A stretch of 64,000 nt of DNA, taken from NCBI RefSeq assembly GCF_003461625.1, contig NZ_QTXL01000007.1, positions 1-64,000 of the forward strand, in the 5' to 3' direction. This document shows, in pieces, positions 6,956 through 39,966 of this stretch; positions within the stretch are counted from its first letter, which is position 1, and the number at the start of each line of letters is the position of its first letter. This stretch comes from Clostridium sp. AF15-31 (GTDB taxonomy: Bacteria; Bacillota; Clostridia; Lachnospirales; Lachnospiraceae). Made by a program: the position numbers and the translations under genes. The notes beneath the pieces are model-generated. The model was not told the DNA's origin, did no database searches, and worked only from the letters and a program-made list of their open reading frames with translations.

Positions 6956-6965
6956 TGTTTTATAG
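6786..6965 (+). pseudogene. Truncated rhodanese-TtcA 5' end
   Basis: The frame from ATG 6786 encodes 59 residues, of which the first 56 match the first 56 of the intact protein at 12302 with five differences (D/N, T/A, V/M, P/S, E/D). It then diverges after KDKLLV into FVL and a stop. The catalytic Cys loop of the rhodanese and the whole PP-loop domain are missing, so it is non-functional. It marks the left edge of the inserted module. Confidence 0.8.
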
Positions 6966-7052
6966 TGATATGAATGAAACACAGATTACTATTTAAATAA
7001 AAAGTAAAAAAATATATTTCAAAACAAAAATCGACATTTTAGAACAAAGTGC

Positions 7053-7081
7053 TTGTAATTTAATTCGAGTATTAATATGTT
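7053..7081 (+). promoter_or_regulatory. Candidate promoter of the peptide/ABC module
   Basis: TTGTAA (7053-7058), 17 bp, TATGTT (7076-7081), 51 bp before the ATG of the secreted peptide, in an AT-rich stretch. Four of six matches in each box. Confidence 0.4.
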
Positions 7082-7132
7082 GTAATTATCGTGCGAAATT
7101 ATATGAGGGTTGTACAACTAAAAAGGAGATTT

Positions 7133-7525
7133 ATGAAACAATTTAAGAGATTTATACTTTTAGTATTATGTATTGGCTGTTTTAGCAGTACATTATTAGT
7201 ATCTGCTGGTTCAAATAGCAGGACGATTTATAATTCACAAAAAACAGTAAAAGCATATTCAAAAGCAAGCTATTCAAAAGCAACTATAAAGGATCATTTA
7301 AAGATTTCGGCTGAGATTAATGGAGGATGTGATGCTTCTAAAATAGGAGCGAGTAATCCGGCATATTATAAATATAAGCCGGGTGGTGGCAGTTACTCAG
7401 GTAAATATAAATTTTGGTATGCAAATTCTGCAAATGGTAAATATAAAATCAAGAAAAAGTATGCAAGTGCAACAATTTTTATCAACTTAGATGATGTTGA
7501 AAAGACATATGCTGTTTTTGAATAA
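7133..7525 (+). CDS. Small secreted protein of unknown function
   Basis: A 130-residue protein. The start is ATG 7133, with AAAAGGAG 6 nt upstream; the GTG at 7091 has no ribosome site. Residues 1-25 form a signal peptide (MKQFKRFILLVLCIGCFSST, cleavage near SA). The mature part of about 105 residues is Lys/Tyr/Ser-rich (KAYSKASYSKATIKD, YYKYKPGGGSYSGKYKFWYA) with a single mature Cys and no recognised domain. It heads a module of two FtsX-like permeases, an ABC ATPase and a lipoprotein, so it could be the exported peptide or bacteriocin that the transporter secretes or protects against. I do not recognise the family; it lacks the lactococcin 972 Trp/His pattern. Confidence 0.6.
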   Translation: MKQFKRFILLVLCIGCFSSTLLVSAGSNSRTIYNSQKTVKAYSKASYSKATIKDHLKISAEINGGCDASKIGASNPAYYKYKPGGGSYSGKYKFWYANSANGKYKIKKKYASATIFINLDDVEKTYAVFE

Positions 7526-7587
7526 CATGTATGAGACGTGATAAAATAGGTAGCTGCAGATATTTATTTTATATACGCAAAAATAAG

Positions 7588-7618
7588 CCAAAGTCCGTGC
7601 TTGCACGAGACTTTGGTG
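7588..7618 (+). other. Stable hairpin between peptide gene and permease genes
   Basis: CCAAAGTC and CGTGC pair with GCACG and GACTTTGG around a TT loop, with one bulged A. No T run follows. It may act as a processing or partial-attenuation site that lowers expression of the transporter genes relative to the peptide gene. Confidence 0.45.
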
Positions 7619-7688
7619 ACTGCGGAGTTAACGATTAGAAATGTACGTTATGAGATCCTTATAGTTACAGATTACAGGAGAAGATGAT

Positions 7689-8870
7689 ATGTATAAAATT
7701 ACAAAAGATAAGCTGACATTTATACTTTTTTTAGTAGGTATGAGTCTGTCCTTGAGTACAATTTTGAATGGATATCAGATTATGAGTAATTGGATTCAAA
7801 AATATGAAAGTCAGGATGGTATTTCAAAGTATAACGCTTATATTAATATCTACTCTACCACAGGAGCAACGGAATATAAATTGAATGATATAGAAGAATA
7901 TCGACAAATACAGGAGATGGCGGTTCGGAGTACAAAAGCAATTCTGGAGCGTATAAGCGATGTTAGTTGTGATGCTGTAATCAGAGGAGATGAGTTTTCG
8001 ATTGGCAGTTGTGAGGAAGATGCGGATGAAGTGCAGATTGCAGTGACATATCATGGAAACTGGAACAGATTGCTTGAAAGTGGCAGATATCCAACAATGG
8101 AGGAATGGAATTCGGATAACATTTATCTTGTAGTAGGACATGGATGGAAGGATTCAGTAACAGTTTCAAAAGATGGAACGGAATGCTTGTCATTAGATGG
8201 AATTGATTGTCAGGTGACTGGGTATCTGGAATCATTTGGAAATGATTCAGATAAAATGATTATTGCGTTTGGCTCGTTAGAAAACTGGACATCGGAATCA
8301 GATGTATTTTTGAACCGGATAGCCGATGGAATGACCTATACTTCATCTTCTTATCCGGGAATGACAATCCAACTTATGGATAAGAGTGTTCCGGTTGCAG
8401 AGCAGGCTGATGAATTGATAGAGATATTTGGACAATCAGATAATTATTATGCACAGCTGCTGGATCATTATGAGAGTCAGACAGATGTGTATATCGTTTA
8501 TAAATTAAAAGCAGCTATTCTGATATTACTGTACATAGTGGGTATTATAAATTGCATAATGATTGCAAGAGTATGGTATGCACGACAGAAAAGAGATTTT
8601 GCAATCATGAAAACGGTTGGGATAACAGATAGACGAATCATAGAGTGGCAGTTGGTACGAATCGGGATATTAATGGGAATTTCTATTATTGTTGCAGGAT
8701 GTTTACAGATTTTCTATTGTCATGCAATGGAAAAGAAGATGGTGTTTGTCTGGAATACATATATTTTGTGGTATTTTATATTTATGATTGGTATTTTGTT
8801 GCTGGTATTACTTTTTCCAATCTGTAAGCTGTTAAGACACCTGGTGCCTGCAAAGGAGGTTAGGGATTAA
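7689..8870 (+). CDS. FtsX-like ABC transporter permease
   Basis: A 393-residue membrane protein: one N-terminal transmembrane segment (about residues 9-29), a large extracytoplasmic domain (about 30-265) and three C-terminal segments (about 272-295, 323-345 and 355-380). This is the four-helix MacB/FtsX permease topology. KRDFAIMKTVGITDRRI after the second helix matches the family cytoplasmic loop (RxxExxxxKxxGxxxxxI type). A GGAGAAG-type site precedes the ATG. Three bases separate it from the second permease, implying a heterodimeric transporter with the ATPase at 10153. Substrate unknown. Confidence 0.72.
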   Translation: MYKITKDKLTFILFLVGMSLSLSTILNGYQIMSNWIQKYESQDGISKYNAYINIYSTTGATEYKLNDIEEYRQIQEMAVRSTKAILERISDVSCDAVIRGDEFSIGSCEEDADEVQIAVTYHGNWNRLLESGRYPTMEEWNSDNIYLVVGHGWKDSVTVSKDGTECLSLDGIDCQVTGYLESFGNDSDKMIIAFGSLENWTSESDVFLNRIADGMTYTSSSYPGMTIQLMDKSVPVAEQADELIEIFGQSDNYYAQLLDHYESQTDVYIVYKLKAAILILLYIVGIINCIMIARVWYARQKRDFAIMKTVGITDRRIIEWQLVRIGILMGISIIVAGCLQIFYCHAMEKKMVFVWNTYILWYFIFMIGILLLVLLFPICKLLRHLVPAKEVRD

Positions 8871-8873
8871 GTA

Positions 8874-10150
8874 TGAGAAAACGAAATATAATACGATTAG
8901 CAGCAGATAATGTTATGTCTCATGTTTTGCAACTGGGTGGTAATATTGTGTTGGCAATGGTGTTATTGCTTTTGATTGCTGTGCTGATCAGTGTTTATAG
9001 TATGTCAACAAATATCAGACATTCTTTGCAAGAGTCAGGAATCAGGAATATAGATACCTTGTGTGAAATTCGTTTTTGGGATGAACTGGATAGTGAATTA
9101 CAGTCTGACCCGGCAATGGATATAATAAAATCAGTGGATGGAGTGGAAGCTGTAACCTGTGCGTGGCAAACAGGATATATAAATATCGATCCGGCATTAG
9201 AGAAATTGAAAAATATTCAGACAGGCCATAGCTTTCAGGCAATCGACGATGAAGATGGAAAAGATGGCTTATATTATATTAAAATAGATGCAACCATTCA
9301 GAATATATGGAAGATGAAATTAGACGAAGGAATCCTAATCGAAGAATTAAAACCGATGGAAGATGGCATGTATTTATATCTGGGATCTGCATATAAGGAC
9401 AAGATAGAAGTTGGAACAAAATATATTGGCGAAGTGGGAGATCAGTCATATACATATGTAGTTGCCGGGATATTAGAAAAGGGACAAAGTTTTCCGGTTT
9501 CACAAATGGAAATGCTGGATTTTTCAGATGTTACAGGAACAATTCCGTTGGATTATGAAGTGTTAGCCTGCCCGGGAGAGATATTTTGTAATAATTCGGA
9601 TTTCTATTTTTCTATAAAACAAGGACACTCTTATGTAAAGATAAAGAGAAGTCTTATGCAAAAGCTGGCAAAGGCTGGATATAAAGATATAAAAGTGATT
9701 GATATTGGTAAAGCAATAGAAAATGGAGAAGAAATGAGTCGGAAGATTAATTATAATATTATTCAGATGTTAATTCTGGTGGGACTCACATTTTGTATTG
9801 TACTTTTATGTATACAGATACTTGATTTTTTGCGGAGACGAAGAGAGTATGGAATTATGCTGACGTCGGGATTTTCAATGAAAAATATAACTTGGATGAT
9901 CCTATGGGAGAATATTCTTAAGTTTCTTCTAGCCTATGGCTGTTCATTATTTCTTGTATGGTGGTTGTTTATTCATATAATAGAGCCTGATCAGTTAATG
10001 GTATTTTCTTACAGAAGTATATACTGGAAGCGAGTGGTTCCTATCCTTGGAGAGATAAGCATACTATTTGTTGCATTATCAACAATTTGCCCGGTATTTA
10101 TGATTTATAAGTGTTCACCGATTGATTTGTTAGGAAAAGAAGGAGAATAG
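8874..10150 (+). CDS. FtsX-like ABC transporter permease, second subunit
   Basis: A 425-residue protein with the same topology: a transmembrane segment at about residues 22-44, a large outer domain, then three helices (about 295-317, 345-365 and 385-408). RRRREYGIMLTSGFSMKNI is the FtsX-family loop. The ATG at 8874 follows the upstream gene within 5 nt, with AAGGAGG inside the 3' end of that gene. Together with its neighbour it should form the membrane part of a MacB-like mechanotransmission or export system. It pairs with the ATPase immediately downstream. Confidence 0.72.
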
Positions 10151-10152
10151 TG

Positions 10153-10818
10153 ATGATAAAACTTCGAAATGTTACAAAAATATATGAGCATCGGGAGCTT
10201 CCGGCGCTTAAGGATGTATCACTGGATGTCCAGGATGGGGAATACATATCGATCATGGGACAATCCGGATCAGGGAAAAGTACATTATTAAATATTATTG
10301 GGACTATGGATTATCTGACAAGCGGTGAATACTATTATAATGATATTGCTGTTCATGAGATGAAAGGAGATAAGCTTCACGAATTTCGTCGTAAACATGT
10401 GGGATTTGTATTTCAGAATTATGCCTTAATGAAATCTTATACGGTATTTGAAAATGTAGAACTGCCATTACTGGCAGGCAGATATTCCGGTAGGGAAAGA
10501 AAAAAACTGGTGAATGAAATGTTAGAATTTACAGGAATCAGGGATTTAGCAGACAAAAAGGTAACCAGGATTTCAGGTGGGGAACAGCAGCGTTGTGCGA
10601 TTGCAAGATTGATGGTGGCAGGGGGAGATTTGATCCTTGCAGATGAACCGACAGGCGCATTAGATCATGAAATGGGAATCGCGATTATGGAGTTGTTAGA
10701 AATGTTGAATAAACGAGGAAAGACATTGATTGTGATAACACATGATCAAGAGATAGGAAGTCGGGCGGATCGTGTGATACGTCTTGCAGATGGACAAATA
10801 TTGGAGGAAGCAAAGTGA
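10153..10818 (+). CDS. ABC transporter ATP-binding protein (MacB/LolD class)
   Basis: A 221-residue ATPase. Walker A is GQSGSGKST (about residue 36), the Q-loop VFQNYALM, the signature SGGEQQR, Walker B LILADEPTGALD and the H-loop VITHD. The start is ATG 10153, 8 nt after AAGGAG; the GTG at 10150 overlaps the previous stop. The MacB/LolD subfamily is indicated by the TGALD motif and pairing with FtsX-type permeases. It would power the two permeases upstream. Its stop overlaps the GTG start of the lipoprotein gene, showing translational coupling. Confidence 0.88.
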   Translation: MIKLRNVTKIYEHRELPALKDVSLDVQDGEYISIMGQSGSGKSTLLNIIGTMDYLTSGEYYYNDIAVHEMKGDKLHEFRRKHVGFVFQNYALMKSYTVFENVELPLLAGRYSGRERKKLVNEMLEFTGIRDLADKKVTRISGGEQQRCAIARLMVAGGDLILADEPTGALDHEMGIAIMELLEMLNKRGKTLIVITHDQEIGSRADRVIRLADGQILEEAK

Positions 10819-12218
10819 GAAATAATTTGGGGAAAGTCACGCTTATGATATCTATATTATTGTGCTTTGGGGGATTAACTGCTTGTGAAAGTGCAAAAGA
10901 GAAGAATATATCATATGTAGGGGATGCGGCAAATAGTTTGCATATTCCGGATAGTTATATGGAAGAATGGAAAGTAAATAAGAATACAGTTAAGCTTGCG
11001 GTAGAGGGTGTTGAATATATACCAGATTCTGATTTTAGAATATATGAATATAAGCAGATTCCGAATGCTGCAAAACAAAAACAGGAGATTGTTGAAGCTG
11101 TGTTTGAGGAAGAGAAAGGAATTTTTGAGAACCGTTTGGAAAATGATTATAAGAATCTGTGCAGAGAGGATCTGGAAACCATACATATATATCAGGAGAA
11201 AATTCGAGAATATTATTTGGATCAGGGACAAACATCACAGGCAGTTTCCTGCAATCAAGAAATAGAAAATATTATTGCCTGTGAGGCAGGTGCATCAGAT
11301 AAACGAGCATTGATACAGAATTATGAGGGACAGAAATATGTTGGATATATCGGAGATAATTTATTCCTTTTGACATTTAAAGAAGAAAATGATTGTATTA
11401 CAGGAATTACACTGGAGAATTATCTGGGAACTGCGGGTTTATATACATATTACGGAATGAAGACGGATGATACGATCACATTGGAAAATCATCTGGGAGA
11501 TGTAACAGAATGTATTGTTGACTTAGAGAATACAGTGGAAAACAGATGTGCAAAAGATATGGATTGTGCGCGTGATGAAGCCTTGTTGTTTTTGGAAGCA
11601 TGTGGAATTACGGATGTAGAGATTTTAGAAGAAGGACCGCTTGGTTATAGTACGTTTGAAAGTGCAAGACCAATTGATTTTAATGGCTATTGTTTTCAGT
11701 TTACCAGAGCTGCAGGCAATAGAGGGGCATATATAGCTGAAACGGAGTTGTTTGCGCCATATCCGTTCTGCACATCTGAATTATTTACTGTTTGTGTTGA
11801 CGATAATGGTGTGATGAATGCGGAACTTTATATTGCAGGGGTACAGGCAGGAGAAAAAGCAGTAACATTAATGGATTTTGAAGATATAGAACCGAAATTC
11901 GCAGAACAATATGAGGCATTTTATGCAGCATATCCAGGAATTGATAAACCAGCGGCATTTAATTTTATGGAGCTTGATTATATGCTTGTGGAGGGGGAAA
12001 AATTAGGGACGTTTGAGTACAAACCTGTTTGGCTCGTGGCGTATTATGAGGATTTGGATACCTGTTATACATATGATTATTTTTATCTTCCTGATTCGCT
12101 GCTGGTAATTGACGCTGAAACAGGAGAATATATTGACTATCTAAAACAGAGCTGTTTTCGTTTATATTCTTCAAGAGTAGCTGTTTTCCATAATTGCATT
12201 GACAAAGTAACTTTTTAG
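10815..12218 (+). CDS. Lipoprotein of unknown function with chimeric C-terminus
   Basis: A 467-residue protein starting at GTG 10815, overlapping the ATPase stop (GTGA). The signal peptide ends in a lipobox LTAC with Cys24. The rest is acidic and rich in Tyr, with no motif I can name. As a surface lipoprotein coupled to an FtsX/ABC transporter it could be a substrate-binding, periplasmic-adaptor-like or immunity component. The last residues (CIDKVTF) and the stop codon are encoded by the copied tcdA-type promoter (TTGACAAAGTAACTTTTTAG), so the native C-terminus was probably lost when the module joined ttcA. Confidence 0.65.
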   Translation: MRNNLGKVTLMISILLCFGGLTACESAKEKNISYVGDAANSLHIPDSYMEEWKVNKNTVKLAVEGVEYIPDSDFRIYEYKQIPNAAKQKQEIVEAVFEEEKGIFENRLENDYKNLCREDLETIHIYQEKIREYYLDQGQTSQAVSCNQEIENIIACEAGASDKRALIQNYEGQKYVGYIGDNLFLLTFKEENDCITGITLENYLGTAGLYTYYGMKTDDTITLENHLGDVTECIVDLENTVENRCAKDMDCARDEALLFLEACGITDVEILEEGPLGYSTFESARPIDFNGYCFQFTRAAGNRGAYIAETELFAPYPFCTSELFTVCVDDNGVMNAELYIAGVQAGEKAVTLMDFEDIEPKFAEQYEAFYAAYPGIDKPAAFNFMELDYMLVEGEKLGTFEYKPVWLVAYYEDLDTCYTYDYFYLPDSLLVIDAETGEYIDYLKQSCFRLYSSRVAVFHNCIDKVTF

Positions 12219-12228
12219 GTCATATAAT
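12199..12228 (+). promoter_or_regulatory. ttcA promoter, copy of the tcdA promoter
   Basis: TTGACA (12199-12204), 18-bp spacer, TATAAT (12223-12228). The spacer and downstream sequence resemble those at 5953-6000. Its -35 box lies inside the 3' end of the lipoprotein gene. Confidence 0.75.
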
Positions 12229-12285
12229 TGCTTGGTATTTTAGTGTAGGTTAAATATATATGAAAGATTATTGGTGCACTAGGAA

Positions 12286-13502: not shown

Positions 13503-14438
13503 ATGAAAAGCAGACAAATCAGAAATTCACTCCTGTTAGTTCTTACGGCATTTATCTGGGGAACCGCCTTTGTAGCACAGAGCAAGGGCGGACAGGCACT
13601 TGGACCATTTTCTTTTAATTGTATACGAAGTCTGGTTGGAAGTGTAGTGTTGCTTCCGGTAATCAGGTTGCTTGATAAAATTAATCCAAATAATAAAAAG
13701 CCAAAGACAGTCGCAGAACGGAGAAAGTTATGGATCGGTGGACTGTGCTGCGGAATGGCATTGTTCTTTGCAAGCTCTGCACAGCAGCTTGGTCTGTATT
13801 ATGGCACTCCGGCAGGCAAGGCCGGTTTTCTGACGGCTTGCTATATTCTGCTGGTTCCGATCCTTGGTTTGTTTTTAAAGAAAAAATGTGGTTGGAATAT
13901 CTGGCTTGGAATGGTGATCACGATTGTAGGACTTTATCTTTTATGTATGACAGCGGGTTCGCTATCATTTCAGAACAGTGATCTCTTTGTATTGCTCTGT
14001 GCATTTTTGTTTGCTATACATATTCTGGTGATCGATCATTTTTCACCATTGGTTGATGGTGTACGGATGTCCTGTATCCAGTTCCTGGTTGCCGGGGTAC
14101 TCAGTGCGTTCCCGATGTTCTTTTCAGAGATGGGACATTCGGCAGCAGGAATAGCAGCATGGCTTCCACAGTTACAGTCATGGGATGCATGGGTTGCAAT
14201 TCTGTATGCCGGTGTGATGTCGAGCGGTGTTGCTTATACCTTGCAGATTATTGCACAGAATGGACTGAATCCGACGCTGGCATCTATGATCATGAGTCTG
14301 GAATCTGTATTTTCAGTACTTGCCGGCTGGGTGATCCTTGGTGAGGTGTTGACCGCCCGCCAGCTCCTTGGCTGCCTGTTGATCTTTATTGCGATTATCT
14401 TCGCACAGATTCCTGTGGGGGAGAAGAAAGAAGCATAA
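13503..14438 (+). CDS. EamA/DMT-family transporter
   Basis: A 311-residue polytopic membrane protein with ten predicted helices in two EamA repeats. The first repeat starts LLLVLTAFIWGTAFVAQ, a signature of drug/metabolite transporters; the second ends with SLESVFSVLAGWVILGE, the matching EamA motif. Substrate cannot be assigned from sequence. It ends 18 bp before structured element A and faces the minus-strand gene at 14641. Confidence 0.85.
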   Translation: MKSRQIRNSLLLVLTAFIWGTAFVAQSKGGQALGPFSFNCIRSLVGSVVLLPVIRLLDKINPNNKKPKTVAERRKLWIGGLCCGMALFFASSAQQLGLYYGTPAGKAGFLTACYILLVPILGLFLKKKCGWNIWLGMVITIVGLYLLCMTAGSLSFQNSDLFVLLCAFLFAIHILVIDHFSPLVDGVRMSCIQFLVAGVLSAFPMFFSEMGHSAAGIAAWLPQLQSWDAWVAILYAGVMSSGVAYTLQIIAQNGLNPTLASMIMSLESVFSVLAGWVILGEVLTARQLLGCLLIFIAIIFAQIPVGEKKEA

Positions 14439-14455
14439 AACAATTTTAGTAGCAT

Positions 14456-14625
14456 TAAAAATATGCGCGCCAACTTATCACTATATTTTATGGAGCAGAC
14501 CTATTTGAACGTCGGTCCTTAACGAGTCACCAATAGGTGACGAGTTTAGTACCGCTACGTGAAAATAGAACGAGAGTGTTCTGCGCAATAAAGATATAGT
14601 GATAAGCCAGCGCGCATATTTTTTA
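14456..14625 (+). repeat. Structured palindromic element A (tandem-GA core)
   Basis: A 170-nt near-perfect hairpin between convergent genes. The outer stem (AAATATGCGCGC...CTTATCACTATAT) pairs with 14592-14625. The core (14486-14598) is shared with element B at 22196-22306, although the outer stems differ completely. The inner part reads CTTAAC-GA-GTCACC (14518-14531), loop AATA, GGTGAC-GA-GTTTAG (14536-14549). U-rich ends on both strands allow bidirectional termination. Conserved core plus paired changes suggests a structured RNA or a palindromic repeat family. Confidence 0.7.
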
Positions 14626-14640
14626 GATAAAATCAATATA

Positions 14641-15393
14641 TTATTTCTTCTTCTTTTCTTTCAGAATCTTCTTAATGGAATATTTCTCTAACGAATCCTC
14701 AAATATCTCACGGAGCGGTCGAGCATTTTTCATAGCAAGGAAGAAATGTGATTTTTCCTTACGGAGCTCGGCTTCTTCCAGCAGATGCTGTTTGAGTTCA
14801 TCGATTTTAACGACGATCTCGTATTCAGTAGCCAACTGACGGATCTTTACGATCAGGTTGAAGGAGTAAACGATATCAATCAGGAACACGCCGTAGAAGA
14901 ATCCGATAAAGAATGAAAATGCAAGATTTCTGGATAACCAGTCAAGTGCTGATAAAACATGTGGATGGATCAGCAGGTAGTAGATCGCGCCGAGAACTGC
15001 CCAGAAGAATGAAAACAGTGGACAGATGATTCCCTGAATATTGCCCCATCGGTCTGTGTAGTCCCAGAGTTTTACATTCATTCCCTTAATGAAGATCAAT
15101 CCGGTGATGTATTCGATCACGGTCATAGCGATCGCCATAAATACAAATAAAACAATCTTCTCAATGATTGGATGTTCATCCAGAAATGACAGGTTAATAG
15201 ATGCTAACATATACAAGACGCATAGTCCTGATCCATATAGCGGAAGGTAAGGACCGACCAGAAAGCCGGGATTTACCCATTTCTTTGTTGTTCGACCATT
15301 TGGAGAACAGAATCTGCGGAAGAACAATTCAATCACCCATCCGATCAGACTTCCGATAAAAAATAAAAACAATAATACAAGAGCTTTATTCAT
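14641..15393 (-). CDS. Membrane protein, putative ABC-transporter type IV (CmpB-like)
   Basis: A 250-residue polytopic protein. LLFLFFIGSLIGWVIELFFR at the start and NPGFLVGPYLPLYGSG are hallmarks of the family labelled putative ABC-transporter type IV (PF06541). Five to six hydrophobic segments precede a cytoplasmic, charged tail (EIVVKIDELKQHLLEEAELR) ending in a Lys-rich stretch. No ATPase gene is adjacent, so a transport role is unproven. AGAAAGG lies upstream of the ATG on the minus strand. It converges on element A. Confidence 0.7.
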   Translation of the reverse strand: MNKALVLLFLFFIGSLIGWVIELFFRRFCSPNGRTTKKWVNPGFLVGPYLPLYGSGLCVLYMLASINLSFLDEHPIIEKIVLFVFMAIAMTVIEYITGLIFIKGMNVKLWDYTDRWGNIQGIICPLFSFFWAVLGAIYYLLIHPHVLSALDWLSRNLAFSFFIGFFYGVFLIDIVYSFNLIVKIRQLATEYEIVVKIDELKQHLLEEAELRKEKSHFFLAMKNARPLREIFEDSLEKYSIKKILKEKKKK

Positions 15394-15622
15394 AATATTT
15401 CAACCTTTCTGATTTATATTTTTCCATAGAATTATGGCTCTTTTTTCATTGATACAAATTGTGACATATCGCGGTCATAAAGTCAATAAATTAAATGCTT
15501 TCTCAAGTTGTTTGTATTGAAAAAGTATGGCAAAATGTGGTACTCTCAGATCAGGTATATGAGGCATTGCAGATAGTGAGAAAGCATATATCTGTATTTT
15601 AGAAAATGAGGGATAGGGAGAT

Positions 15623-16828
15623 ATGTATAAGATCAGAGAAAATGCGGATCGGGAGAAATGTATCCTGTTGATTCCAGCAATGTTAGATGCACATTTTCCA
15701 TTGTTAAAATATGCGTTTTATTCAAAAAATTATCATCCGGTGATTTTAAAAAATGAAAAGGATATAACGGATATTGGATTAAAATATGTCAATAACGATA
15801 TGTGTTATCCGATCATCTTAAATGCAGGACAGATGATAGCAGCTCTTCAATCAGGGAAATATGATCTGAACCGTACAAAATTATTAATGCCGACTGCCGG
15901 AGATGCATGTCGTGGTTCAAATTATCTGCATGTGTTAAAGGCGGCTGTTCGGAAAGCAGGATTTCCGCAAGCTCAGGTATTGTCGTTAAACATTCAGGGA
16001 TTGGAGAAGGGGGAGCAGATGAAGCTGGAACCTGATATGGTCTGGCGTGCGTTATTTGGATTGTTTTATGGTGATATTCTGATGCTTTTACTAAATCAGG
16101 TCAGACCAAATGAAGTGCATAAAGGTGAGGCACAAAGGAAATGGAAGAAATGGGTCAGGATTCTTGCATGTGATCTTCGGGAAGGAAAACATCTGACAAT
16201 TTCAAGAATGAAACAGAATTTTATAAGGATTGCGGCGGATTTTTCAAAAATTGAACTGGTGAAGCCAAGAAAGCAACGAATAGGGATCGTCGGAGAGATT
16301 TATATAAAGTATTGTCATTTGGGAAACTGGGATATGATCCGTTTTCTCGAAAAGAATAATTGCGAATCCCATACAAATGGATTATCCTGGTACGCGATGT
16401 ATTATATAGATTCGCATTTATCGGATGTAAGCAAAATAGAACAGGCGGCTTATCGTATTGGGTTAAAATTGTTCGGAAGTCTTCAGAGATCCATGATTGC
16501 TGCAATGCGGCAGTATGGATTTTATTCGATGGAAGAATTTCAAATAATGAAAAAAGAGGCTGATGGTTATGTAAACTGGACATATAGAACCGGTGATGGC
16601 TGGCTGATCGGTGCAGAGATGGTAGGACATATTCTGCATGACTGCAAAAAGGTATTGGCAGTTCAACCGTTTGGATGTATGCCAAATCATATCTGTGGGA
16701 GGGGATTGTATCCTTCCATTCAGCAAAAGCTTCCGGAAGGGCGTATTGTGAGTGCTGATGTAGATTCCGGTTCTTCAAAGTTGAATGTTTATAACCGTGC
16801 CAGAATGTTGGTGGATATGCATATTTAA
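15623..16828 (+). CDS. 2-hydroxyacyl-CoA dehydratase/activase-related protein (COG3581-like)
   Basis: A 401-residue protein starting at ATG 15623 with AGGGAG upstream. Motifs NDMCYPIILNAGQ, GDACRGSNYLHVLK, IGIVGEIYIKYCHLGNW and QPFGCMPNHICGRG are those of the C-terminal half of large acyl-CoA dehydratase activase proteins. There the Cys residues are thought to bind an iron-sulfur cluster. The N-terminal ATPase (BadF/HgdC-like) domains are absent and no dehydratase gene is nearby, so this is a free-standing version. It precedes nadA by 94 bp; a functional link is not evident. Confidence 0.65.
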   Translation: MYKIRENADREKCILLIPAMLDAHFPLLKYAFYSKNYHPVILKNEKDITDIGLKYVNNDMCYPIILNAGQMIAALQSGKYDLNRTKLLMPTAGDACRGSNYLHVLKAAVRKAGFPQAQVLSLNIQGLEKGEQMKLEPDMVWRALFGLFYGDILMLLLNQVRPNEVHKGEAQRKWKKWVRILACDLREGKHLTISRMKQNFIRIAADFSKIELVKPRKQRIGIVGEIYIKYCHLGNWDMIRFLEKNNCESHTNGLSWYAMYYIDSHLSDVSKIEQAAYRIGLKLFGSLQRSMIAAMRQYGFYSMEEFQIMKKEADGYVNWTYRTGDGWLIGAEMVGHILHDCKKVLAVQPFGCMPNHICGRGLYPSIQQKLPEGRIVSADVDSGSSKLNVYNRARMLVDMHI

Positions 16829-16922
16829 CAGAATAGATGGTAATCTTTCTCAATATGCGGTATACTTACTGTGCATTCTTTAACAAAAAATGAAAACATA
16901 ACAGACAAAGGAGAAAATTGTC

Positions 16923-17845: not shown

Positions 17846-18045
17846 AATAATATATAACTGAAAGCACGACCGTATCGTATGTAAAACACACGGAGCTACC
17901 CTTGTTTCGATTGGTTTTTATATGCACGGGATTTCGGACACGATAAAATCGTTGTGTCCTCCATCCCGGCATAAAAACATCGAAACTCGGTCGCTTCCGT
18001 TATGGTTTTATCATACGATACGGTCGTGCTTTATTATATATTATT
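17846..18045 (+). other. Long inverted repeat C downstream of nadA
   Basis: A 200-nt sequence folding almost end to end. AATAATATATAA and AAAGCACGACCGTATCGTATG (17861-17881) pair with their complements at 18012-18045. TAAAAC pairs with GTTTTA. The central part GGACACGAT-AAA-ATCGTTGTGTCC is nested in GGGAT/ATCCC and TTTCGAT/ATCGAAA. It shows no coding potential. It lies directly after the nadA stop, so it is probably transcribed as the nadA 3' UTR. Confidence 0.7.
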
Positions 18046-19997: not shown

Positions 19998-20210
19998 CTA
20001 TGTGATATCCCGCCCTGCGCCTGTCCTTATAGAAATGCCATTGCGAGGATTTCGTTATGAACTGCACATTGTTAGTAAATACGGGTGCTTGTTTGAGCCG
20101 AAGGCGAGTTAGCACAGGAGTATTTACGAATTTAACATGTGCAGTGAGTAGAAAACGCAGCACGGCATTTCTATAAGGACAGGCACAGGGCGGGATGCCA
20201 TAGAGTTTTT
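19998..20210 (+). other. Long inverted repeat D between pdxT and pdxR
   Basis: A 206-nt hairpin. ATCCCGCCCTG...CCTGTCCTTATAGAAATGCC (20007-20039) pairs with 20163-20196. An inner arm ACTGCACAT...GTTA-GTAAATAC pairs with GTATTTAC...TTTAAC-ATGTGCAGT. At the tip CTTGTTT-GA-GCC-GAA-GGC-GA-GTTAG resembles the GA core of elements A and B. AGTTTTT follows the stem. It sits after an already complete pdxT terminator. Confidence 0.68.
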
Positions 20211-20331: not shown

Positions 20332-21732
20332 ATGCTGACATATGCACTGGAAAATCGAGGAACAGATACGTTATATGAATATCTGTACAAGCAGATCAAA
20401 ACAGATATTTTGTCTAAGAAGCTTGTAGCAGGGGAACGTTTGCCATCGAAGCGTCTGCTTGCAAAAAATCTGAATGTCAGCACGATCACCGTGGAAAATG
20501 CATACAGTCAGTTGGTTGCCGAAGGATATATATATTCGATTCCGAAAAGCGGTTATTATGTTACGGACATTTCGGCAGATCTGATGAAGCCGTTGCCGGA
20601 GCGACCGGCGAAGCAATTTGAAAAGCCGAAAGAAAAGAAAACATATTTTGCGGATTTTGCCAGTAACTCAACGGTAGAGGATGCGTTTCCATTCAGCATC
20701 TGGTCAAAGCTTTTAAAAGAAGTGATGGCGGAAAACAGCAAAGAGCTGATGTCCCGATCACCGTCCAAGGGTGTCTATGAGCTGCGAAGCGCCGTAGCAG
20801 GCTATCTGTATCAGTTCCGTGGTATGGATGTGAAGCCGGAGCAGGTCATCATAGGAGCCGGAACAGAATATCTCTATGGTCTTATCATTCAGCTGCTTGG
20901 CTATGACAAATGTTATGCGGTCGAAGATCCGGGGTATCAGAAGATATCAAGGATCTATCAGGCGCAGAATGTATGCTGCAAATTTGTGGCAATGGATGGA
21001 AATGGGATCAATATGGAGGCTCTGGAAGAATCTGGCGCAGATGTACTTCATATTTCGCCGGCGCATCATTTTCCGACCGGACTGGTAACACCTGTCAGCA
21101 GGAGATATGAATTGTTATCTTGGGCATCAAGAAAGGACAACCGCTATATCATCGAAGATGAATATGACAGTGAATTTCGACTGGTTGGCAAGCCGGTACC
21201 TACACTTGAAAGTATCGATGTGGGCGAAAAGGTCATCTATATCAACACATTTTCCAAGAGCCTTTCCTCTACGATCCGTATCAGTTATATGGTTCTCCCG
21301 GAGAGTTTGATGCGGCGATATGATGAGATGCTCAGCTTTTATGCATGTACGGTGTCAAATATCGAGCAATATACACTTGCAAGATTTATCACCGATGGTT
21401 GTCTGGAAAAACACATCAACCGCATGCGTAATTATTACAGAGAACAGCGGGATCTGGTGCTTGCCTGCATTAAAAAATATATGAATCCGGACAAGATTCG
21501 TATTCGCGAAGAGAATTCAGGGCTGCATTTTCTGTTGGAGATTGATACGAATTACAGTGACGATCGGCTGCGGAATAATGCCGAAGCAAGAGACGTTCAC
21601 ATTTCATTTCTCAGCCAGTATTATAGAAATACCGAAAATGCCAGATATCATACACTGGTCATTAATTATTCCGGTATCATGCCGGAGCATATAGAAGAAG
21701 CAGTCAGAAGATTGATTGAAAGTATCGAATAA
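20332..21732 (+). CDS. pdxR: MocR-family PLP-dependent transcriptional regulator (PdxR-like)
   Basis: A 466-residue GntR/aminotransferase chimera. Residues about 12-80 form a GntR winged helix (LYEYLYKQIKTDILSKKLVAG, LPSKRLLAKNLNVSTITVENAY). The rest is a class I aminotransferase fold with EDEYDSEFR and the PLP-Lys motif INTFSKSLSSTIRISYMVLP. Such proteins sense PLP and regulate pdxST. Here it lies downstream of and co-directional with pdxST, whereas divergent arrangements are usual. The PdxR assignment rests on context. Confidence 0.82.
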   Translation: MLTYALENRGTDTLYEYLYKQIKTDILSKKLVAGERLPSKRLLAKNLNVSTITVENAYSQLVAEGYIYSIPKSGYYVTDISADLMKPLPERPAKQFEKPKEKKTYFADFASNSTVEDAFPFSIWSKLLKEVMAENSKELMSRSPSKGVYELRSAVAGYLYQFRGMDVKPEQVIIGAGTEYLYGLIIQLLGYDKCYAVEDPGYQKISRIYQAQNVCCKFVAMDGNGINMEALEESGADVLHISPAHHFPTGLVTPVSRRYELLSWASRKDNRYIIEDEYDSEFRLVGKPVPTLESIDVGEKVIYINTFSKSLSSTIRISYMVLPESLMRRYDEMLSFYACTVSNIEQYTLARFITDGCLEKHINRMRNYYREQRDLVLACIKKYMNPDKIRIREENSGLHFLLEIDTNYSDDRLRNNAEARDVHISFLSQYYRNTENARYHTLVINYSGIMPEHIEEAVRRLIESIE

Positions 21733-21778
21733 AGAGTGTGCGGATGTTAATATAAGGAACCATATAAGGAGGAATCAT

Positions 21779-22114
21779 ATGAAGATATCGTTTGATACAA
21801 TCGCAGAATCAGCGATCGAGAATTTTAAAGGGGGAGAAGGAACATTCCATGTGCATATGTTTCAGGATATGAATAACAAGATCATGAAGGGCAGACTTGT
21901 GCCTGGTTCATCGATCGGAACACATACACATGAGACAAACAGTGAAATTATTTATGTACTTTCCGGTGTCGGAACGATGGAGTATGAGGACACCAAAGAG
22001 AAGCTGTATCCGGGCGACTGCCATTATTGTCCGCAGGGAGCAACCCACAGCCTGTCAAATGAAGGCACCGAAGACCTCATATTCTTCGCCGTTGTACCTG
22101 AACACGAGCACTGA
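21779..22114 (+). CDS. Cupin-domain protein
   Basis: A 111-residue single-domain cupin. Motif 1 is GTHTHETNSEIIYVLSG with metal-binding His/His/Glu; motif 2 is YPGDCHYCPQGATHSLSN. The start is ATG 21779 with AAGGAGG upstream; the earlier in-frame start at 21716 lies within pdxR. Small cupins act as isomerases, dioxygenases or sugar sensors; function here is not assignable. It may be co-transcribed with pdxR (46 bp apart). Confidence 0.8.
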   Translation: MKISFDTIAESAIENFKGGEGTFHVHMFQDMNNKIMKGRLVPGSSIGTHTHETNSEIIYVLSGVGTMEYEDTKEKLYPGDCHYCPQGATHSLSNEGTEDLIFFAVVPEHEH

Positions 22115-22168
22115 GCGTCAAACATACTCCTAAGGTTTATATGATTGCTAATGTTAGTATATAAACAG

Positions 22169-22327
22169 ATAAGAGACAGGGGCAGAGGATATATATTTTA
22201 TGAAGCAGACCTGTTCGAACGTCGGCCCTTGGTGAACTGCATAAGCAGTGAGCCTAGTACCGCTACGTGAGAATAGAACGAAAGTGTTCTGCGGAATAAA
22301 GATATATCCTCTGCCCCTGTCTCTTAT
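22169..22327 (+). repeat. Structured palindromic element B (tandem-GA core)
   Basis: A second member of the element A family, again between convergent genes. The outer stem AAGAGACAGGGGCAGAGGAT (22171-22190) pairs perfectly with 22307-22326 and is unrelated in sequence to that of A. The core 22196-22306 is conserved. Inner hairpin: CTTGGT-GA-ACTGC, loop ATAA, GCAGT-GA-GCCTAG (22228-22257). Compared with A, AAC:GTT has become GGT:GCC and the tip stem has changed on both sides, i.e. compensatory change. Confidence 0.72.
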
Positions 22328-22337
22328 CGTTCGGGTA

Positions 22338-23009
22338 TCATACAGCCACCACCTCACACACTGTGAGGACGTTGCCGTTGATGTAGAAGCGCACGTCGAA
22401 GCCTGCGAAGGCGACGCCATATCTACGATAGGGATCGTGCTGGTAGCCGGGACGCGGATCTTCTGCAAGAATGCCAATCAGGGCAGGACGCTTGGCTTCC
22501 GGGATCATTGCCAGAAGCTCCGGCGGAAAGATGACATCCAGTTTTTCCGTATGAATGTGTTCGGTAAAACCGCCGGTGGCATCCGGGTGGCAGTCTGTAT
22601 ATGGAATATAAGGTTTGATATCATATACAGGAGTACCGTTTAACAGATCGACACCGGAGATATGCAGGATCGGACCATAGTCATCGGTATATTCAATTCC
22701 TGTCAATTTTACAGAAGACAGACCTATATTATTTGGGCGGAACGGCGATCTGGTCGCGAATACGCCCATTCTTTTATTGCCGCCAAGTTTTGGCGGCTTT
22801 ACTGTTGCACTCCAGTTCTCCCGTTTGGCTTTATGGAATTCCCACAGGATCCAGATGTGGGAGAAATCCTCCAGCCCCCGGAAGGCTTCCGGCTGCCTGT
22901 ATTCCGGCAGAAAAACGACCGTTCCGGTCAGTTCATCCACCAGACCGCTCTGTCTGGGAATTCCAAATTTTTCCTGAAAATCTGTATATACATGTCCGAT
23001 GATATTCAT
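22338..23009 (-). CDS. trmO: tRNA (adenine(37)-N6)-methyltransferase TrmO
   Basis: A 223-residue SAM-dependent methyltransferase (UPF0066/YaeB) that methylates t6A37 to m6t6A. IGHVYTDFQEKFGIPRQSGL, RQPEAFRGLEDFSHIWILWEF, FATRSPFRPNNIGLSSVKL, DLLNGTPVYDIKPYIPY and the C-terminal DPRPGYQ are diagnostic. Start chosen at 23009 because the family begins there; an in-frame ATG at 23060 has no ribosome site, although the site for 23009 is also weak. It converges on element B. Together with TcdA at 6017, two alternative t6A37-modifying enzymes lie in the same window. Confidence 0.9.
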   Translation of the reverse strand: MNIIGHVYTDFQEKFGIPRQSGLVDELTGTVVFLPEYRQPEAFRGLEDFSHIWILWEFHKAKRENWSATVKPPKLGGNKRMGVFATRSPFRPNNIGLSSVKLTGIEYTDDYGPILHISGVDLLNGTPVYDIKPYIPYTDCHPDATGGFTEHIHTEKLDVIFPPELLAMIPEAKRPALIGILAEDPRPGYQHDPYRRYGVAFAGFDVRFYINGNVLTVCEVVAV

Positions 23010-23118
23010 ATCGTTCTTTTCTTTATCCTTTCGTAAAACGAAATTGTATCTGCTGTTCATAGTAACATGAATATTTTTTATTTTCCATAGAAACTCATAA
23101 AGTGCGTTTCTTCATAAT

Positions 23119-39727: not shown

Positions 39728-39966
39728 CAAACGTGCTGTGACATGATAGCGTTGAAACGGAGGTTGCTGTATCGCATAGATACAGGTTTTTCGTGGAGCG
39801 AATGTCAATAAAGAATTACTGACGACAAGTCACTGTACCAATAACTGTCTATCAAAAGGATAGAAACGACGTGTTGATTCTGATTTAATTCAGGATACAC
39901 ACGGGAGAGTGTACAGTCACCACTTGTTGTACTATTAAAAAGTGCGAAAAGGAGGCGGCTTTTTTT
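39728..39966 (+). promoter_or_regulatory. S10 operon leader with attenuator-like hairpins
   Basis: CTGTATC-GCATA-GATACAG then GTTTTT (39767-39791) is a compact intrinsic-terminator-like hairpin only about 35 nt after the start of transcription. Further downstream, CTATCAAAAGGATAG and AGTGTACA...TTGTACTATT can pair. This suggests attenuation or autogenous control of the operon. Confidence 0.55.

Follow-up and report, generated by a model that had tools for sequence, protein, structure and literature searches.

The stretch of DNA analysed here, which we call the window, consists of 64,000 nucleotides from Clostridium sp. AF15-31 (contig NZ_QTXL01000007.1, positions 1 to 64,000). It contains two intergenic hairpin elements, A and B, each flanked by a pair of convergent genes, which encode EamA and ABC_trans_CmpB at A and a cupin and TrmO at B (Table 1). 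An earlier reading of the sequence alone had proposed that A and B share a core flanked by outer stems that are different in sequence yet each self-complementary, a pattern taken as the mark of a selected RNA structure. A 186-column alignment bears out the common core (GAACGTCGG, AGTACCGCTACGTGA, AATAGAACGA, GTGTTCTGCG) and the unlike, self-complementary outer stems; both elements fold as long hairpins. The predicted RNA folds have energies of -74.6 kcal/mol for A (z -10.3) and -90.8 kcal/mol for B (z -12.4), and equal stability was reached in none of 200 shuffles of either element. The paired differences between the inner helices are present as well, with AAC:GTT in one element and GGT:GCC, which includes one U-G pair, in the other, and GTCACC:GGTGAC versus ACTGC:GCAGT around the GA/GA loop. 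Two copies alone are thin evidence, since AGTACCGCTACGTGA with up to three mismatches also occurs at least twice in 16 of 100 shuffles. The reality of the observation is settled by the finding of further copies of the family.

Table 1. Elements A and B and their neighbouring genes in the window. R1 is the covariance model and G001 the nearest genome compared, both described in the text.
Feature	Positions	Strand	Evidence
Element A, whole hairpin (variable arms and conserved core)	14457..14623	+	RNA fold z -10.3; R1 core match 123 bits
Core of A, R1 model (basal helix, P2-P3-P4 arm with GA/GA loop, GNRA hairpin)	14482..14597	+	
Left variable arm of A (AAAAATATGCGCGCCAACTTATCAC)	14457..14481	+	reading and fold; last 34 nt without match in G001
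Right variable arm of A, then T run	14598..14623	+	reading and fold
Element B, whole hairpin	22164..22331	+	RNA fold z -12.4; R1 core match 118 bits
Core of B, R1 model	22192..22305	+	
Left variable arm of B; the ACA before it (22165-22167) is the left side of a recurring boundary motif	22168..22191	+	
Right variable arm of B, then GTTCGG, a form of the right boundary motif GTCCG	22306..22328	+	
EamA transporter gene, left of A	13503..14438	+	PF00892, 4.1e-36
ABC_trans_CmpB gene, right of A	14641..15393	-	PF06541, 3.1e-39
Cupin gene, left of B (ORF from first in-frame start)	21716..22114	+	PF07883, 1.7e-16
TrmO gene, right of B	22338..23060	-	PF01980, 2.6e-47

A first pattern search in G001 returned 39 matches, mostly real copies. 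R1, a covariance model built from 20 copies with a hand-drawn structure, has 94 matches in G001 at 92 places, two of which are matched on both strands. Among 20 relatives, six are positive (G001 94, G004 19, G005 9, G007 8, G003 6 and G012 1), while eight genomes from other families of the same order have no R1 match. A pattern limited to P4, one helix of the core, occurs in at least 118 stretches over the species genomes of genome_contigs. Among the 80 stretches listed, most are titled Lachnospiraceae or one of its genera, some carry a wider name only (Clostridiales, Clostridia, Eubacterium, bacterium) and one is a metagenome-assembled genome titled Bacteroides; R1 matches all 80, although the pattern held none of its other helices. 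R1 also matches 48 of 120 sampled genomes of G001's family, each from another genus, with at least 30-31 matches in six of them. We take this family to be Lachnospiraceae because of the named matches in the P4 scan.

The search of Rfam that the sequence-only reading had proposed finds no catalogued family: in Rfam 15, nothing reaches the gathering cut-off at A, at B or at 10 loci with other subtypes, the best weak match at A being mir-203 (17.1 bits versus a cut-off of 65). The sole Rfam match in the window is an S10-Clostridia ribosomal protein leader at 39744-39825 (RF03136, 69 bits). A literature search, the reach of which did not extend to preprints, most subscription papers and supplements, found no paper on this element. 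Carriage by a virus, phage or plasmid was rejected, as there were no exact pattern matches in viral_contigs and no BLAST match to the core of A in phages and plasmids. A and B thus belong to a large uncatalogued family of dispersed intergenic repeats in Lachnospiraceae, which adds a widespread structured repeat, found at up to 92 places per genome, to bacteria common in gut and rumen.

As for the core, it is 90-115 nt long and forms a three-way junction. Its basal helix reads GCAGA:TCTGC in the window; the long P2-P3-P4 arm contains a GA/GA internal loop and ends in a variable tip, and the third branch is a short hairpin with a GNRA tetraloop. P4 (CGGU-N-CUUA / UAGUACCG) holds the letters most conserved across copies (CGGTNCTTA ... 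TAGTACCG). An optional domain of ~55 nt may lie between P2 and P3, either on the 5' side or, as its reverse complement, on the 3' side, and in one comparison the two forms are identical at 47 of 55 positions. One unit of the genome G064 (L329 / L352) has, at the place of the optional domain in other genomes, an additional hairpin of 37 nt.

Three lines of evidence support selection on one folded strand in the core. First, covariation, which the sequence-only reading wanted examined in more copies, holds in 20 copies and in 89 distinct sequences from other genomes: both-sided changes are found in 28 of 41 pairs (17.0 in shuffles) and in 37 of 41 pairs (31.5 in shuffles), respectively, and the covariation score of the 89 sequences is 0.585, as compared with 0.141 in shuffles and 0.05-0.09 in slid controls. 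Second, G-U and A-C combinations should be about equally frequent without strand-specific folding, and the core helices show 132 G-U versus 49 A-C in 94 rows from G001 and the window (p 5e-10) and 128 versus 56 in 82 rows from other genomes (p 1e-7), an excess that points to folding of this one strand. Third, the tetraloop conforms to GNRA in 166 of 176 rows (87/94 and 79/82 in the same two sets), with both A and G occurring at position 3. The claim of a selected RNA structure is therefore supported for the core, and not for the outer stems, the complementarity of which is specific to each locus and weakly RNA-like. The folded form of the core is most likely RNA rather than single-stranded DNA, a folded DNA strand being the other possibility.

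Compensatory change is widely accepted as proof of RNA function. It has another possible source in DNA template switching, which, according to one study, can create and maintain RNA hairpins and yields multi-base compensatory changes (PMC8794818). Covariation in this family could then be a by-product of template switching with no RNA involved at all, and half copies and rewritten arms do occur among the copies (see below). However, neither the G-U excess of the core nor a GNRA loop with A and G at position 3 fits this explanation, and the internal loops and mismatches, which arm correction would erase, are kept across genera. We therefore regard it as very improbable.

The arms behave differently from the core. 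A strong outer stem is present in 56 of 79 copies from other genomes, versus none of 79 when the flanks are shuffled, and in G001 the stem score is at least 8 in 80 of 92 copies, a count made without a shuffled control. The sequences of these stems are specific to their loci. Cores in G001 are up to 93% alike with unrelated arms, and 22 of 4186 pairs of places exceed the best shuffled control score of 25; one pair (2486802 and 2488809) has whole arms in common. In G099, a genome of another genus, an 87-nt core recurs unchanged in five copies, the left arms of which are 25-79% alike and the right arms 39-64%. Where the variable stem ends on its outer side, a boundary recurs by eye in G001 and other genera, with ACA|G as its left and C|GTCCG as its right side, and B has a form of it; the right boundary is enriched, TCGTCCGT being found in six copies versus 0.2 expected. 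Since DNA template switching can make such stems (PMC8794818, PMC8604942), their complementarity is no proof of RNA selection, and the outer stems are poor evidence for it.

Where do the arms come from? None of 38 arms from G099 and G001 has a match better than E 0.046 outside its own partner or related copies, so neither an arm origin nor an extended antisense target was found in these two genomes, and the idea that arms are guides or copies of other DNA was rejected on the same ground. Once present, arms decay almost neutrally. Among 382 arm pairs compared between sister genomes, 352 are unchanged, 12 single changes preserve pairing and 15 disrupt it, and double changes are compensated in two cases and uncompensated in one. 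These counts come from 12 of 16 rows, two of which have nearly identical partners; the four rows dropped (flank identity ≤0.62) are loci with an inverted core.

These observations bear on the proposal that arms are made new at each insertion, either because target DNA is copied in inverted form or because the element enters an existing palindrome. In its favour are the G099 copies, in which identical cores come with unlike but well-paired arms, the near-neutral decay afterwards, the lack of another source for the 38 arms in G099 or G001, and a few outer stems that recur in unrelated genomes (e.g., GGGGCTGTCGCATTAA). It is less compatible with two loci of G137, a sister genome of G099, that lack the element and have neither arm, though loss there is possible, nor with the many arms of the G099 group that look mutually related by eye or the G001 pair with whole arms in common. 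As a general account we consider it possible, if on the doubtful side; new formation of arms at insertion may nonetheless contribute. At the two empty sites of G137 there was no sign of a bare core having entered a ready-made hairpin; in view of the recurring outer stems, this route may still apply to some copies.

Turnover of the elements is evident in the window itself. The window and G001 are 95-99% identical over ~56 kb, yet site A is occupied in G001 by another palindromic element without an R1 match, and site B by two R1 elements the arms of which are unlike those of B. The element opposite A (window 14430-14636; G001 263994-264218, L148), which R1 does not match, belongs to a second family of palindromic repeats, which has the motif CGATAAAATCGTTGTG and a relative in the window at 17941-17956. 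A third structured repeat, with the motif GTGCTTGTTTGAGCCG, is found in the window at 20074-20100; G001 has the same hairpin with a longer, different loop (123 vs 22 bp), and a stretch resembling this repeat lies next to G001 391506. Larger differences are a 1.3-kb segment of the window (15533-16832) that is absent from G001 between flanks 95-96% identical, with a 401-aa ORF (15623-16828) without a Pfam match, and ~5.3 kb (6957-12269) without a G001 counterpart and with syntenic flanks on both sides.

Loss and inversion can be followed in the group of G099, in which 11 of 16 G099 copies are also present in G135 or G137, with a flank identity of 86-98%. Of four loci checked in G137, none of which has a core detectable by R1, two lack the core and both arms as a single block (~175 and 181 bp), and two have lost the core between short direct repeats and kept one arm. 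Fourteen loci are common to two or all three of these genomes, and at 6 of them the core is inverted. There, alignment of the flanks is confined to the minus strand over 1.8-2.9 kb, whereas the cores align on the plus strand, with plus-strand alignment scores of 88-116 versus 6-26, and the arms form inverted repeats round the flipped segment. Both orientations thus occur at one locus between sister genomes. Consequently, the same orientation of A and B, which had been noted from the sequence and is correct (both cores lie on the plus strand), carries little weight as evidence. If inversion also occurs within strains, the element would be a recurrent DNA switch between genes.

Close neighbours in G001 also follow an orientation rule: pairs at most 300 bp apart, two palindromic copies excluded, comprise 12 in (-,+), none in (+,-), three in (-,-) and one in (+,+) orientation, the 5' ends of the neighbouring elements facing each other in (-,+) pairs. 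Two copies, 391187 and 2756453, are half copies, in which one end matches the reverse-complemented other end at 35 and 33 of 38 nt, versus 19 and 23 of 38 in two ordinary copies. In one shared copy, both arms appear by eye to have been rewritten together, with an indel.

Evidence on mobility comes from G064, in which core-bearing units of ~258 bp end in GTTACTTTTCATGGGGTGGGGAAA repeats. These have 58 + 55 matches with at most three mismatches, as compared with none for the reversed control. Among 19 units inspected by eye, 8-bp target duplications are exact in four and have one mismatch in two, and 5 of 11 flank pairs show an 8-bp repeat versus 1.5 in controls. Coreless derivatives of 54-120 bp exist, one of which (L332) has an exact duplication. 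The same ends also bound a 2.3-kb copy, the 581-aa product of which has an IS66 transposase domain; since R1 finds no core in this copy, the core is cargo in G064.

These ends, duplications and the IS66 gene in G064, together with the resemblance of outer ends found in several other genomes (GTTACTGTTCACGG and GTAACAGTTCAGCC), could mean that the whole family consists of IS66-derived MITEs, which are bacterial miniature inverted-repeat elements, and that copies without visible ends have decayed. We find this distinctly improbable, since the 2.3-kb IS66 copy has no core, coreless units (including L332) also carry the ends, G001, G005, G007 and G012 have R1 copies and no PF03050 hit, and copies in G050 end by eye in another repeat, AAACTGTAG. 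IS66 was accordingly kept as a mover for G064 only.

Our best explanation, which we hold with a probability of roughly 55%, is a non-autonomous repeat with an RNA core inside palindromic arms, in which DNA template switching rewrites and flips arms and core. The core would be kept as a folded single strand, most likely RNA, in the middle of a long palindrome that can form hairpins in DNA. A polymerase switching template within such a hairpin would copy one side onto the other, giving rewritten arms and half copies; a switch could also carry the internal domain to the other strand or invert the core in place, and slippage would delete the core. Half copies, the domain moved between strands, joint rewriting of arms and inversion of the spacer would thus all follow from a single process. 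A second study attributes arm homogenization and spacer inversion to template switching (PMC8604942). Rewriting would be occasional, because change in ordinary shared arms is slow and near neutral. The element would spread as a passenger, with IS66-type inverted repeats and 8-bp duplications in G064 and other ends elsewhere, and was probably also mobile in the lineage of the window. Our guess is that some factor binds the folded core and thereby either promotes persistence of the element or lets insertions be tolerated.

A bolder version would see a selfish element of new design, an RNA three-way junction in palindromic arms that are rewritten or made new. It would owe its persistence to a folded core strand and DNA hairpins rather than to conserved ends, flip strand in place, and have been captured as cargo by unrelated transposons. 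We consider this version rather unlikely. RNA selection and DNA template switching, as causes of paired changes in stems, become countable here within the same molecule; the core shows mainly the former and the arms mainly the latter. The family is a useful test case for the common equation of compensatory change with RNA function.

Several observations weigh against the explanation by template switching round an RNA core. The arms lean to G-U (37 versus 21 A-C by the strict count, p 0.048; 115 versus 92 by the loose count), as do the nine outer pairs of the model (44 versus 6 in G001, 24:17 in other genomes), which suggests that RNA selection extends some way into the arms. Arms in sister genomes mostly change on a single side, which makes rewriting a rare event there. 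The weakest helix of the core, P2, is paired in 75-87% of cells, and the orientation of the inverted loci was read from draft assemblies. One P3 variant is found in 6 of 12 G135 copies and 1 of 16 G099 copies with its partner strand unchanged, suggesting exchange among copies; identical cores may partly result from gene conversion and need not mean recent insertion. As for mobility in G001, a REP/RAYT mechanism and a group II intron or other retroelement were rejected, because this genome has no PF01797 (Y1, RAYT type) and no PF00078 (RVT_1) hit at E 1e-5. G001 also lacks a PF03050 (IS66) hit and inverted ends common to its copies, and target duplications were rejected there because 8-bp direct repeats (20 of 92) do not exceed controls (19.8). 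No mover was thus found for the copies in G001, the ones nearest the window.

A further point against it is the location of the elements in G001, which occupy 33 of 44 convergent and 7 of 45 divergent gaps in the stretches fetched; since these were chosen round elements, only the contrast between the two gap types counts. This would fit an RNA that serves the host, i.e., a 3'-UTR, bidirectional terminator or small RNA kept at many loci, and so would the RNA-like core, the T run of A, which could end transcription both ways, and the retention of 11 of 16 G099 copies in a sister genome. However, the preference for convergent gaps is not general, being weak in other genomes (15 of 79 copies versus 36 of 233 background gaps). 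Intrinsic termination is not a family property either, because in spite of the T run of A, only 10 of the 92 G001 copies have a T-rich 3' end and only 11 a T-rich opposite end. Moreover, the window and G001 have neither A nor B in common despite flanks 95-99% identical, copy number varies from 0 to 94 among relatives, and 6 of the 14 shared loci have an inverted core. A host-functional RNA is therefore unlikely. Promoter-like sites number two at A and none at B, as compared with 1.1 and 0.7 in shuffles, and a scan for terminator-like sites, which admits loops of 3-8 only and is blind to these hairpins, returned none at either element.

Several known systems come close to this family. REP, BIME and REPIN elements with RAYT are short, palindromic and intergenic, and their numerous copies often form inverted pairs. 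The present family resembles them in its many palindromic intergenic copies and in its close pairs in G001 (12 in (-,+) versus none in (+,-) orientation), and differs in having a longer, complex core and no Y1_Tnp hit in G001. With MITEs it shares the inverted ends, target duplications and matching transposase copy seen in G064, but G001 copies lack common ends and duplications, and it is the middle rather than the ends that is conserved. As in IStrons (PMC4227781), an RNA domain is joined to a DNA transposon; here, the domain has no Rfam ribozyme match. MRSC motifs ("mobile/repeat sequence candidates") are also structured and covarying (PMC11109978), present in dozens of copies per genome without a fixed gene orientation, and in some cases near transposases. 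The member compared, MRSC-65-2, consists of one long stem that contains UYCCGG repeats and is found in diverse phyla, in contrast to the three-way junction and locus-specific arms described here. Finally, template-switch hairpins (PMC8794818, PMC8604942) show the same arm homogenization and spacer inversion and stems perfected in one step, whereas the present family is a dispersed bacterial repeat in which the spacer is itself a conserved fold.
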